Positions 33,415 through 39,183 of a stretch of 64,000 nucleotides of DNA are shown in pieces. The DNA is from Trichocoleus desertorum NBK24 (GTDB lineage Bacteria > Cyanobacteriota > Cyanobacteriia > FACHB-46). The stretch covers positions 5,223,969-5,287,968 of the forward strand of contig NZ_CP116619.1 of the NCBI RefSeq assembly GCF_030409055.1, given 5' to 3'. How positions within the stretch are numbered: position 1 is the stretch's first letter; each line of letters starts with the position of its first letter. The notes under the pieces are model-generated. The model was not told the DNA's origin, made no database searches, and saw only the letters and a program-made list of their open reading frames with translations. A program made the position numbers and the translations under genes.

Positions 33415-33849
33415 TCAAAAGTTCTCAGGAGGATGCCAACCGCTAATGGCCCAACGATAGCGAGCAGAAACGATTACAGGATTATTCATTCGTAGGGTAG
33501 TTACCGTTGCTCGACCGATTGCCGTCAACCCTTCTACTTTTGTTGCATCCAAGCTCCAGTTGAAATGCTCTCGCCATTGCTGAGTACGTGGATGAAATAG
33601 AGGCACGATCTCGCCTGTCAGTGGATCTTTGGCTTCTGTTGAGTCAGATTTGTACTCATTGCAAGTGCGACAAGCAAGACAGAGATTTTCAAATGAAGTA
33701 GCTCCACCTTTGGATCTCGGCTGGATGTGATCGAAGGTCATTGGGATACCGCTGTTTGCTTCGCTCGTTAGGCAATAGCAACAACGCTGGCAATCTACCT
33801 GTTCAATTCGGGCTTTTAAACTGTCAGAAATGTAAGCGGACACAAGCAA
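33415..33849 (-). CDS. HNH endonuclease
   Basis: A 144-aa HNH-family nuclease-like protein. CQRCCYC and ACRTCN form the zinc knuckles, and between them MTFDHIQPRSKGGATSFENLCLACRTCNEYKS is the HNH core (Asp-His, then Asn-Leu, then Asn). The start is TTG 33849 or GTG 33843. It begins one base after the stop of the upstream gene, so the two are translationally coupled. Pairs of an HNH gene with a small helical partner are frequent in cyanobacteria; the biological role is unknown. Confidence 0.85.
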   Translation of the reverse strand: MLVSAYISDSLKARIEQVDCQRCCYCLTSEANSGIPMTFDHIQPRSKGGATSFENLCLACRTCNEYKSDSTEAKDPLTGEIVPLFHPRTQQWREHFNWSLDATKVEGLTAIGRATVTTLRMNNPVIVSARYRWAISGWHPPENF

Positions 33850-34254
33850 TCAGGAGTTGGGTACGTGGTGTCCTCGCCAGTGGAGGAGGGCAGCAGCTTG
33901 CGCCTTGCGGAGCATGAAGCGGTCTGACTGCGATCGCAGTTCTATCAACTCTAGTTGTTCTGCTTGAGATAAGGTTCCGTTCTGGTTGCGATCGAGTAGC
34001 TCGTCATATCGTGCCATCTCTTCGGCAGTTTTTTTGGCTGAGGCAATCTTCCATAAAGCCTCGTCTTCAAGGCGATCGAGTGCGGCCAGATCAGTCTTAA
34101 ATTCGTCTGGTACATTATCCCAATCTGGCGGACTGCCAACTTTGAGGGCATGAAGCATCACTTCTTCAAGCGATCGCCCGGTTGCGTTAGCAGTATTGAC
34201 CAATCGCTGATAGATCAGGTCTGGAATTTGTAAAGTGACAGTGGCAGCCATCAA
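33850..34254 (-). CDS. Antitoxin-like small protein coupled to an HNH nuclease
   Basis: 134 aa. The N terminus, VTLQIPDLIYQRLVNTANATGRSLEEVMLHAL, looks like a ribbon-helix-helix or VapB-type DNA-binding element. The remainder is helical and charged (WKIASAKKTAEEMARYDELLDRNQNGTLSQAEQLELIELRSQSDRFMLRKAQAAALLHWRGH). It lies directly upstream of the HNH gene with no gap, consistent with a regulator or cognate partner. I cannot name the family with certainty. Together they may form a two-gene accessory module. Confidence 0.6.
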   Translation of the reverse strand: MMAATVTLQIPDLIYQRLVNTANATGRSLEEVMLHALKVGSPPDWDNVPDEFKTDLAALDRLEDEALWKIASAKKTAEEMARYDELLDRNQNGTLSQAEQLELIELRSQSDRFMLRKAQAAALLHWRGHHVPNS

Positions 34255-34329
34255 ATTTTTAACCTCATACTATTTCGCTTCTCCTGTAGGAATAACTGGA
34301 GATTAATAAAATTCAATGCAATGAATTTC

Positions 34330-34358
34330 GGAAGATACTAATATTTTTAGTATCTTCC
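34330..34358. terminator. Perfect 12-bp hairpin after the STAND-like gene
   Basis: GGAAGATACTAA (34330-34341) and TTAGTATCTTCC (34347-34358) flank a 5-base AT loop. It lies 34 bp after the stop codon of the large gene. No strong U-run follows on either strand, so it may be a terminator or an mRNA 3'-end stabilising hairpin. Confidence 0.6.
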
Positions 34359-34392
34359 TTACCTCGGAGGGCAGAAATTATCCATAAACTTT

Positions 34393-37300
34393 TCATTCTC
34401 GGCTGCGTTCTCTAGCTATTCGTCTTTCTAGCGAACGGTGCATATCTCTTGCCCAAAAGGACATTTCACGTACTGGATGCTCAAACCAATTCTCTAAGAG
34501 GGTTAAGTACATTTCAAGATGTGGAACTATAGAACCTGACCATGACCTTGGATAGAGACGGCGTGCTAGGGCTAGACGAAATTCTTCAAAAGCTCCAAAT
34601 TCATAAGTGAGACTTTCCAAAGCTAGATGCCACTTATTGTTGCCTATTTTATCTACTTCGATCATGGGATAAAAAATGCACAAAAACGGTGAGCGTATTT
34701 CCGGATTAACTTTAGCCCAATCTACGAATTCAACTTCGGAAACGCCAAACAGTATTCCTTCTTTATTATGAGATTCATCATCAGAGGAATACTGCGGTGG
34801 TCCAACAAGAGCCTTTAAGTAATGACTCTCTGATGGAGTGGCAATCTCAAAGAAACGTGATAAGGATATCCACAATAAACTTGGTTTCTCTTGCACCAAC
34901 AACCTAATGATATTTCGGCAATGACTATCTAATGCAGAGAATATTTTGTAATCTTCAACCTGGCATAGCCTTACAATCTGATTGCAAACTTTAAGGGCAA
35001 ATTCATCATCAATACCATAATGTTTTTGAATTAGTAGAATGGTCTGTTCAAATAGATATCCATCTCTTGTAGCTGTCTTTGACTTTTCAAAAAGATCTTG
35101 TGAGGTAATTAGCTCTTGTGTTCGATTAGCAAGTTGCTTGTCAAGAGCTTCCTGGTCATGTTGGTACATAGAGATAATTTCGAGAGATGCCCATATACCC
35201 TCTGAACCATAATTATTAGCCAACTCATTAATTAAAGGAAGAATATCCCCGGCTTCAAGATGATTTAATCCTCTTCCGTATGAGAAATATACACATGCTG
35301 ACACAGGAATTTTTTCTTTTTTTACATTCTGGACAATTTCATCCAGCCTTTCAACAGAAATTTTGACAGCAGTATATATATTGACCATCTGATCTTTAAG
35401 TAAGGCAGATTTCAAAGCAATCTGAATACATTGAGTTGCAGCTTCAGTGTCTCGTTTATCAATCCCAGCAAGCAATCCACGCAGGAATTGTAATTCCCCT
35501 TTCTTGTCAGATATCTCAAGCTCTTTGACTGCAATTTGAAAGGCTTCAACTGGAGCTTCCAATTTCATTGCTAATTCTTCAGTAAATGGAAAGACATTAT
35601 TTAGCTCTTCCCCAACCATTCTTTGAATAGCACGATGTGAAAGATGCTTGTCTAATCCAATTTCCGCAGCGACTTCCTTAGCTTTCCTAGATGAATACTC
35701 AAAATCTTGATTGGTACTACTTTCTCTGTTGTAAACCAGATCAGGATCATGAATATCTGCTGTCCAAAATTTAGTATAAAGAAGTGCTCGTTCGATTGGA
35801 TCAGTTGGTATAAGATCGTCATAAAACTGCCTTACTTTTTGTGAAAATTTTTCGGGCGCTTTTGCTCTGTCAAAATAAAGCCAATCACCAATTCCCTCAA
35901 TCGCCTCAAGCCAAATTCCCTTCTCTTTTGTAATTTTCTTTACAGCACTTTCAATATCGCCAAGTAGATTTTCGCAAAGTAAAGAGCGGATATGAGATGC
36001 AATAATCTTTTCACATTCATCTGCAAAATCCCTATACTTATCGCGAATATTTATGAGCCTTTTAAGACCATTTCTGTAAAAGTCAAAAATCTCATCCCAC
36101 GTCTCTGGATACCAAGCTTTGATAGGAGGTCGGTTCCCTATCACTTCAGAATCTCCATGCCAAACGACGTGATCTTGCCTTAAAGTTTTTTCTAATGATC
36201 CAATACAAACTGAAATAATTCTAATATCGCCAGAAGATAGGCCCTGATCAAGAATCACAAACCTTTCAGAAGGTTCAACTTCAGTTCCGCTCAACTGTAA
36301 TTGGAAAAGCTGTTTGAACCGATTTGCTGCATTACTCGCATAGATTCCACTGTCAACTGCCGCTAACCGCATAAGTAATTGCGCAGCGATGTAAAACGAT
36401 CGTTTTAGAAAGACAAGCTTCCCTAAAACGTTTACAAGCTCTTTTTTTCTCACTACTACTTCATTCAAATCATTTAAAGACAAGTCACCATATACATGCT
36501 GAATAACATCAGCAACACCATCAGGATCAATGTGTACAAAAGCGTTAAGGCACTGTGAACCAAGTTCTGTATCTAATCCCTCTACTGAACAAAATCGTTC
36601 ATCTTGTGATAAGAGCCGTTGAGTAACTCTAACTGCTGCTTGTGAACCATCAAGGTAACGCCACTGACTTAGAAAGGATGAACGTAACACTGGAGATGCA
36701 GTTTCTATAAAGTTAAGAATAGTTTTGACACGCAGTAAATCTAATCTTCTCGCTCCAAGAAAAGCTGCTATGTGGAGAGGTGGCGGCACAAAATAATAAC
36801 CCCGATAATCGACAAGATTTTGTTTTGCCGCGTAAGCTAAATGTTCATACATTTCATCACCAGTTTGTCTGGCTAAGTTTTCAGCAACAAAGTCAATCTC
36901 ATTGCTGAGGCTTTCATCCGCACCTAGCTGCTTGAATAAAGAAAGACACTCGACCGCTCGAACCTGTTCAACATGATTTATGCCACAACCTATGAGAATA
37001 CGCTCTACAACGTCTTCAACGGACTTTAAAATTGGCGCTCCCTCTGAATAATTATCTGTTGCTAGTACTGCGATACGGGGATAACCACCACTCAGAGCCG
37101 TAATAAAGTTAATGTCTGAGTAGTCAGCTCTTGGGTATCGTTGCTGGATGATGCCTTCAATAAGAGTATTATCAGCAGGAGCGACAGTAATATTGAGACA
37201 GCCATCCTTTTCAATAGGTTGGTTGTCATTGCCAATAGTTAAAACTCTGAGGTTGCTACCTTCAGTCGTCACAATTTCACAAAGTTTAACGGCAGTCTCG

Positions 37301-38274
37301 CGTGGGCATTCATCTACAACCATGAGAGCAGGGTTTCCAGCTTCCGAAAGACTTTGAGCTATTTGAAAAATTTGACTACCAATATCCCTCAAATCACAAT
37401 AAATAGCAGACGTTGCTAGTGCAATCTTCGTCGTAGTAGTTTCATCTCTAAATACTTCATACACGCATCTAGTTTTTCTGACCCCTGACGAACCAAGAAT
37501 CCTGATAGCTTTTTTAGAATCAGCAAGATAATCTGCAATTCTTTCCTTCACTTTCTCAAAAGTAAGCGAGTTTTCACTAGAAGGCTCATGATTCAGCTGA
37601 TTACTAACATTTTTACTTCCAATTAAAAAGCGGCTCTTCTTGTCTTCGATTTGTAAAATTGACGCAATATCAGGTTTTCTACCCAATCTCTCAATTGTTT
37701 GAAAACCTCTTAAAGTAAGTTCAGACCGCTTTTCATTAAGCCATACTGCGATTGCAGGATGCTTGGATACCCAATCAGAAATTTTATTTGCATCATAAAT
37801 ATCAATGGCTTTTAATTGATCAGGATTAGCCCCAGCCTCTCGAATACCTTGTTTGATACCTTCAATTCGTTTGTCATATTTGGAGCCGATCAACACAGCA
37901 GAGGTGAAACCAATATAAGACCCGCTTTCGGCAATGGCCTTCTCTACTGCTTCATTCAGCGTCCGTGTATTTCCCTTTTTTTGACTATTTTTTGTCCAAA
38001 CTTCTCTCTTCCAACCTGCTGGTTCTGGATCGGTAGCCTTCGACTGAAATATGCAGAACCTGGAAGGTAGATAATTTGTCTTTTCAAGTCCCCCTACCCA
38101 TGAAATTCGCGCATCTTCTCCTCCATCAGGAACAGTAATCTGAAGAGGGACTGAAACTCCACATAGACTGATACCAGAGTACTGGGCTTCAGCATGTAGC
38201 AATTTTTTCAGCAGTTCAACAAGCTGTTTGCTGTCTAAGTGTTCGATCTGAGATGAAGAGGCATCAAAAATCAT
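34393..38274 (-). CDS. Candidate nuclease-STAND ATPase (Avs-like) defence protein, 1293 aa
   Basis: I infer three regions. (1) Residues 1-190: restriction-endonuclease-like fold, with Glu20 in a helix, VPDGGEDARISW (Asp50/Glu53/Asp54) and FCIFQSKA (Gln77-x-Lys79), a PD-(D/E)XK pattern. (2) Residues about 225-480: P-loop NTPase with IRILGSSGVRKTRCVYE (Walker A-like, 258-274; Arg266 replaces the usual Gly), ALMVVDECP (Walker B, Asp321-Glu322) and SGGYPRIAVL (a GxP motif as in STAND and AAA-like ATPases). (3) Residues about 500-1293: long helical, repeat-like region, possibly a sensor. This layout is that of antiviral STAND (Avs) proteins, in which target recognition activates an N-terminal nuclease. 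AT-rich codon use and absence of HIP1 sites in 3.9 kb contrast with neighbours and suggest transfer. The start ATG has no evident Shine-Dalgarno sequence. Confidence 0.6.
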   Translation of the reverse strand: MIFDASSSQIEHLDSKQLVELLKKLLHAEAQYSGISLCGVSVPLQITVPDGGEDARISWVGGLEKTNYLPSRFCIFQSKATDPEPAGWKREVWTKNSQKKGNTRTLNEAVEKAIAESGSYIGFTSAVLIGSKYDKRIEGIKQGIREAGANPDQLKAIDIYDANKISDWVSKHPAIAVWLNEKRSELTLRGFQTIERLGRKPDIASILQIEDKKSRFLIGSKNVSNQLNHEPSSENSLTFEKVKERIADYLADSKKAIRILGSSGVRKTRCVYEVFRDETTTTKIALATSAIYCDLRDIGSQIFQIAQSLSEAGNPALMVVDECPRETAVKLCEIVTTEGSNLRVLTIGNDNQPIEKDGCLNITVAPADNTLIEGIIQQRYPRADYSDINFITALSGGYPRIAVLATDNYSEGAPILKSVEDVVERILIGCGINHVEQVRAVECLSLFKQLGADESLSNEIDFVAENLARQTGDEMYEHLAYAAKQNLVDYRGYYFVPPPLHIAAFLGARRLDLLRVKTILNFIETASPVLRSSFLSQWRYLDGSQAAVRVTQRLLSQDERFCSVEGLDTELGSQCLNAFVHIDPDGVADVIQHVYGDLSLNDLNEVVVRKKELVNVLGKLVFLKRSFYIAAQLLMRLAAVDSGIYASNAANRFKQLFQLQLSGTEVEPSERFVILDQGLSSGDIRIISVCIGSLEKTLRQDHVVWHGDSEVIGNRPPIKAWYPETWDEIFDFYRNGLKRLINIRDKYRDFADECEKIIASHIRSLLCENLLGDIESAVKKITKEKGIWLEAIEGIGDWLYFDRAKAPEKFSQKVRQFYDDLIPTDPIERALLYTKFWTADIHDPDLVYNRESSTNQDFEYSSRKAKEVAAEIGLDKHLSHRAIQRMVGEELNNVFPFTEELAMKLEAPVEAFQIAVKELEISDKKGELQFLRGLLAGIDKRDTEAATQCIQIALKSALLKDQMVNIYTAVKISVERLDEIVQNVKKEKIPVSACVYFSYGRGLNHLEAGDILPLINELANNYGSEGIWASLEIISMYQHDQEALDKQLANRTQELITSQDLFEKSKTATRDGYLFEQTILLIQKHYGIDDEFALKVCNQIVRLCQVEDYKIFSALDSHCRNIIRLLVQEKPSLLWISLSRFFEIATPSESHYLKALVGPPQYSSDDESHNKEGILFGVSEVEFVDWAKVNPEIRSPFLCIFYPMIEVDKIGNNKWHLALESLTYEFGAFEEFRLALARRLYPRSWSGSIVPHLEMYLTLLENWFEHPVREMSFWARDMHRSLERRIARERSRE

Positions 38275-38453
38275 GCAGTTAACAGAGGATAAAAACTATT
38301 TTGACTTACGCTTTGACTTAAGTGGAGTTCGGTGTTCTCTAAAGTATTTCTTACTACAATAGTGCGTCCATAACCGTAACTCTTCTGAATTTGATCTTTT
38401 TGTTCTTTAGCCAGGATGCTGTAAAGGAATAGGGCATGTGAGTTTCCGCGCAA
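38271..38453 (-). CDS. Possible small ORF overlapping the STAND-like gene start
   Basis: A 60-codon frame from a TTG (38453) ends at TGA 38271-38273, overlapping the large gene's ATG as ATGA. Such overlaps usually mean translational coupling. The sequence (KEQKDQIQKSYGYGRTIVVR in part) is not recognised. It could be a real small partner protein, a relic of a mobile element, or chance. No Shine-Dalgarno sequence supports the start. Confidence 0.25.
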   Translation of the reverse strand: MRGNSHALFLYSILAKEQKDQIQKSYGYGRTIVVRNTLENTELHLSQSVSQNSFYPLLTA

Positions 38454-38488
38454 AGCTCAAAGTATTCTCGGTGATTGCTGATCATTCA

Positions 38489-38656
38489 AGGTTGAATCTT
38501 TTTTATTCAACGCTTAATTGTTTTGATTCAGTCCTACCTTTCTTTCAGTTAGCTCTAAATGAGCAAGATTTAACAGTGAACCTACATTCCTTAGCTGCTA
38601 ATCTACAACATTCAGCGTTAAACAGTTTTAGTTCAGGCTTGAACCCCACAGATTTA
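38489..38656 (+). repeat. Degenerate 21-bp tandem repeats, eight units
   Basis: The 420-bp gap between the STAND-like gene and the next gene contains eight consecutive 21-bp units. The plus-strand reading shows them as heptapeptides of pattern x-L-N-x-x-x-(S/L): RLNLFYS, TLNCFDS, VLPFFQL, ALNEQDL, TVNLHSL, AANLQHS, ALNSFSS and GLNPTDL. They lie inside a 77-codon plus-strand frame (GTG 38438 to TGA 38671). Whether the frame is translated is unknown; the repeat periodicity itself is clear. No other feature is seen in the gap. Confidence 0.6.
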
Positions 38657-38691
38657 CCCGCCATACTTTGAGCTTTGGCAACGATTGTTCG

Positions 38692-39183
38692 CTAACTAGC
38701 TGCGATCGTTTCTGCGGCTGTTGGTTTTGCTGGCTTACTCTTAATGGCTCGAAACAGCGTCCCTAATTGTTCGGCAATTCCCTTCAAACCAGGTGTTTTC
38801 TTCGCTGCCGTCTTCACATAATCATACACAGTGAGGCTGCTTGACATCGCTTCACTGCCCACCGCCAGCAACGTATCATCCACCTGCTCCGACATCTGGT
38901 TCAGCAACATCTCAATTTCCATCAGCGACGTTGCCAAGCGGAAATCATTCGAGAAACCATCCAGATCAAAACTCGCAGGCAAAATATTACGGTTGCCCTG
39001 ATCTGCATTTAGACTGGTCTGCACAAACGCCAGTCGCTTATCCCCCATCTTAAACAACCGCTTCCGCTCTGTCGTATTCAGCGTGATCAAAAATGGCAGC
39101 TTTTGCTGAATGGTAGCGATCGCTTGACGAATTTCTTTGAGGTCTGCGTCCGATAAGGTTACGTTGATGTCCTGGTAAGGCAT
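38692..39183 (-). CDS. Conserved hypothetical helical protein, 163 aa
   Basis: From ATG 39183 the protein reads MPYQDINVTLSDADLKEIRQAIATIQQKLPFLITLNTTERK..., then a helical segment LATSLMEIEMLLNQMSEQVDDTLLAVGSEAM and a Lys/Pro-rich C-terminal tail. An upstream extension to 39228 exists but looks poorly coded. Family not recognised, though similar small proteins with LITLTxxERKxLxKMGDK occur in diverse bacteria. No signal or membrane segment. It lies alone beside the oxidoreductase gene. Confidence 0.6.
   Translation of the reverse strand: MPYQDINVTLSDADLKEIRQAIATIQQKLPFLITLNTTERKRLFKMGDKRLAFVQTSLNADQGNRNILPASFDLDGFSNDFRLATSLMEIEMLLNQMSEQVDDTLLAVGSEAMSSSLTVYDYVKTAAKKTPGLKGIAEQLGTLFRAIKSKPAKPTAAETIAAS

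Follow-up and report, generated by a model that had tools for sequence, protein, structure and literature searches.

A PD-λ-4_A-family nuclease-STAND protein of Trichocoleus desertorum NBK24 with an arginine in its Walker A loop, encoded at a locus that varies within the genus

The 64,000-nucleotide stretch of Trichocoleus desertorum NBK24 DNA analysed here ("the window") contains a gene for a 1293 amino acid PD-λ-4_A-family protein, which we read as a stand-alone NLR-like (STAND) immune protein that has probably been recently inactivated by a single Walker A substitution, G266R, leaving a defence-null allele. The protein is of an ordinary kind, the allele is unusual, and the locus is of interest in its own right, since two other genomes of the genus have other NLR-like genes between these flanks (Table 1).

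Table 1. Positions of the gene, its domains and its surroundings in the window
Feature	Position	Strand	Basis
PD-Lambda-4_A-family gene, 1293 aa	34393..38274	-	ATG at 38274, stop at 34393; PADLOC PDLC03991 full length
PD-(D/E)XK-like nuclease domain, N-terminal, residues ~1-185	37720..38274	-	conserved columns; alpha-beta order in AF2 model
STAND/NB-ARC-like NTPase and winged-helix region, residues ~236-513	36736..37569	-	AF2 model, Foldseek matches
Walker A GSSGVRKT, residues 261-268	37471..37494	-	read from sequence
Codon 266, AGA (Arg)	37477..37479	-	codon and alignment comparison; Gly in all aligned relatives with a residue there
Walker B LMVVDE, residues 317-322	37309..37326	-	alignment; D321, C323 nearly invariant in family
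HEAT/ARM-like alpha-solenoid, presumed sensor, residues ~514-1293	34396..36735	-	AF2, Foldseek
Perfect hairpin (GGAAGATACTAA...TTAGTATCTTCC) shortly 3' of stop codon	34330..34358		read from sequence
Replaceable segment	34252..38441		other NLR-like genes between matching flanks in G001, G002
Right-hand border element, 15-bp perfect inverted repeat (38451-38465 / 38663-38677)	38451..38677		sequence

The open reading frame lies where an earlier note on this DNA had placed it, on the minus strand, which that note omitted. It is a real gene, since twenty relatives, full-length or partial and ~19-74% identical, align with its product, and dN/dS relative to the closest of them, from Kovacikia, is 0.14; by this comparison the gene is under purifying selection apart from residue 266. 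Its GC content is 0.393 (GC3 0.29) against 0.480 for the window, and HIP1 sites, of which the window has 95, are missing from positions 34170-39116, where 7.3 are expected (Poisson P about 6e-4). The foreign-like composition and lack of HIP1 sites noticed earlier are thus real, and the reading of a horizontally acquired gene is supported. Its relatives are found in 43 plasmid records and at 15 viral-contig loci, none was found in the phage collection searched, and among cyanobacteria they are sporadic; their occurrence in only 7 of 386 genomes rules out a housekeeping orthologue.

Searches of Pfam, NCBIfam and PDB sequences gave no significant match to the protein, but the PADLOC model PD-Lambda-4_A matches it at residues 2-1292 (E 3.9e-69), so the gene that the earlier note put forward as a candidate belongs to a family already catalogued. 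PD-λ-4 was recovered in E. coli by selecting functionally for anti-phage activity (Vassallo 2022, PMC9519451), and a later review places it under P-loop NTPases only (PMC10952713). The gene for the E. coli A protein, WP_000963924.1 (2532 bits against the model), sits in an ssrA island and is followed by the PD-Lambda-4_B gene. The window protein is homologous to this protein from end to end and shares with it the nuclease, P-loop and helical order of its parts and the catalytic residues; it differs in being only 21% identical (BLASTP, E 8e-35, 1078 columns), in the arginine of its Walker A, and in its Walker B, which has DE where the E. coli branch has DN. Component B (PDLC03992) matches nothing anywhere in the NBK24 genome and is present in only one of the 24 records that carry an A homologue. 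Most members of the A family therefore look stand-alone, and for the same reasons the window protein is classified, from its sequence, as an A-family protein without its partner and not as part of a complete PD-λ-4 system.

The cyanobacterial homologues on Kovacikia plasmid pA and Nostoc plasmid pC052_A are 68-74% identical to the window protein over the full length. Stand-alone A homologues of cyanobacterial and rhizobial plasmids have a canonical GxSGxGKT P-loop and are plasmid-borne, whereas the window gene is chromosomal. Near the homologues lie, among others, phosphorothioation genes, an Abi gene and the gene of an AbiP2 reverse transcriptase, and these support a defence role, which for the cyanobacterial branch, at its distance from the E. 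coli protein, is a predicted one. We note that in E. coli STEC434 (L070:7001-12613) an AbiP2-type reverse transcriptase takes the place of PD-Lambda-4_B behind the A homologue, and that the homologue on Rhizobium leguminosarum plasmid pPR4 has a neighbour of 1373 aa (L019:1816-5934) whose annotation is helix-turn-helix regulator and which gives a weak match to the family profile.

Alignment and AlphaFold2 (AF2) models bear out the earlier proposal of a nuclease head, a STAND-like NTPase and a helical sensor on one chain. The PD-(D/E)XK pattern of the N-terminus (E29, D50-GGxD54 and Q77-x-K79) is conserved, D54, Q77 and K79 being near-invariant among 37 aligned sequences and E29 being present in most, and the modelled elements follow the order H-E-E-H-E-H-E; a motif placed in this way on an alpha-beta core makes the domain a predicted nuclease. 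The motifs GSSGVRKT, VVDE (residues 319-322) and GYP (the GxP motif, 397-399) are as first read, and the near-invariant residues of the NTPase in the same alignment are R258, G261, S263, G264, K267, R269, D321 and C323. The model of residues 1-560 (pLDDT 82.9) shows a P-loop NTPase and winged helix of NLR-like fold, for which Foldseek matches NRC3, the STAND structure 6mfv, CED-4, Avs3 (its terminase-bound structure, E 1.6e-7), NOD2 and Apaf-1. Global TM-scores against known STAND structures are low, 0.24-0.35, in part from aligning several domains at once, and because of these modest values the fold was assigned from the E-values and motifs. The helical region, the C-terminal ~780 residues, is an all-helical solenoid in the model of residues 440-1293 (pLDDT 87.9), with CAND1, UNC-45 and importins among its Foldseek matches.

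By this anatomy we infer that the C-terminal solenoid would sense a phage product, that the central NTPase would bind ATP and so drive assembly, and that the N-terminal domain would then cut DNA. The G266R change lies directly before the catalytic lysine of Walker A and would most likely block nucleotide binding. Position 266 is glycine in 35 of the 35 other aligned sequences that have a residue there; its codon is GGA, GGC or GGG in the closest relatives, and a single G-to-A change (AGA for GGA) gives the arginine found here. The Walker A consensus GxxxxGK[ST] is accordingly not matched by this allele, but every close relative whose P-loop can be read matches it. The arginine does not mark a separate branch, as the earlier note had supposed: it is a lone substitution, and in the tree the protein, nested among relatives with the canonical glycine, is sister to the Kovacikia plasmid protein (74% identical, support 0.998) among Nostoc proteins.

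In PaAvs5-1 of Pseudomonas, changing the equivalent glycine, Gly362 of GPAGSGKT (before Lys363), to alanine abolishes immunity (PMC12931631). By analogy with this Gly-to-Ala mutant of a different STAND protein, the Arg266 allele is most likely defence-null, within a protein that is otherwise intact and conserved. General decay of the gene is ruled out by its dN/dS and by the count of private changes at clade-invariant positions, which is 10 in the window protein and 7 in its sister. The loss, if any, was recent, since dN/dS relative to Kovacikia is 0.14 overall and lowest, 0.05, in the segment that holds the NTPase.

The purifying selection elsewhere and the similar numbers of private changes mean that the change is either recent or an error. 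An error of sequencing or assembly at R266, with an intact, active PD-λ-4_A-type protein encoded by the true gene, seems to us unlikely. In its favour, only one transition separates the codon from that of a site invariant elsewhere, the reading frame is intact and under purifying selection, and no other family-wide conserved residue is altered; against it, the genome is in a single contig and 99.99% complete. It is much less probable that the arginine is a functional change, making the protein a nucleotide-independent or dominant-negative regulator or giving it a different activation trigger; the rest of the protein is indeed not decaying, as the private changes indicate, but recent loss would give the same picture, no relative has the arginine, the sister included, and the corresponding glycine is essential in Avs5. 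We therefore retain recent inactivation as the probable reading.

The resemblance to Avs proteins that was first proposed holds for the three-part plan of effector, STAND NTPase and helical-repeat sensor on one chain, which Avs3 and Avs5 share, and does not extend to membership by sequence. That the window protein represents a new type within the Avs (AVAST) family proper is very unlikely, in spite of this common plan and the Avs3 structural match, as PADLOC, scanned to a limit of E=1, gave PD-Lambda-4_A only and none of the Avs1-5 models, a search with the family profile to the same limit did not find the Avs3 chain, and the sensor is modelled as HEAT/ARM-like rather than TPR-like.

Downstream of the gene and on the same strand, an HNH open reading frame (33415-33849), which scores with the PtuB models of Septu in PADLOC, abuts an RHH antitoxin-like one (33850-34254). 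The adjacency of this pair had been correctly reported, but the suggested link to the 1293-aa gene fails: at 10 of 10 loci checked in other genera RHH and HNH occur together without it. Sequence comparison thus identifies the two as an independent, widespread cyanobacterial pair, and its occurrence alone in many cyanobacteria rules out an operon with the 1293-aa gene. The HNH gene is absent from both same-genus genomes, G001 and G002.

In these two genomes the flanks of the 1293-aa gene are conserved, mostly at 84-93% DNA identity, and homology restarts at most 3 bp from the same two points. Between them G001 (L040:2618-6868) has a caspase-nSTAND5-TPR gene of 1283 aa and an EACC1 gene, and G002 (L041:3513-7022) has a 1169-aa LRR-Roc-COR gene; the literature describes EACC1/caspase proteins and Roc-COR proteins as conflict systems that multicellular bacteria possess (PMC7159879). 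The receptor genes have one direction in all three genomes. The border element of ~230 bp (38438-38677), in which a 77-aa open reading frame reads as heptad repeats of LN, edges the replaced segment in all three, with both repeat arms in G001 but just the left one in G002. The swap site is marked by neither a tRNA nor an Rfam element. A hotspot conserved across genera is unsupported, as the flanking rlmI-like and UbiB genes do not lie side by side in the further genera that were searched.

The comparison, of three genomes only, is suggestive of a position in the chromosome that is occupied now by one NLR-like immune gene, now by another. It is conceivable, though we hold it with some doubt, that the interval from the RHH start codon (34251) to the inverted-repeat element (38442) serves the genus specifically for exchanging whole receptors that belong to unrelated families (in the window PD-λ-4_A nuclease-STAND, in G001 caspase-STAND-TPR with EACC1, in G002 LRR-Roc-COR), the Walker A mutation being a silencing that precedes replacement.

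A known defence family, so far listed mainly as "P-loop NTPase", gains from this analysis a mechanism-level reading as a nuclease-STAND receptor, one that is usually found without its annotated partner B. The NBK24 allele is a naturally occurring variant of Walker A for which loss of immunity is predicted, and three unrelated NLR-like genes that appear to interchange at one locus in one genus would make receptor turnover in cyanobacteria testable.
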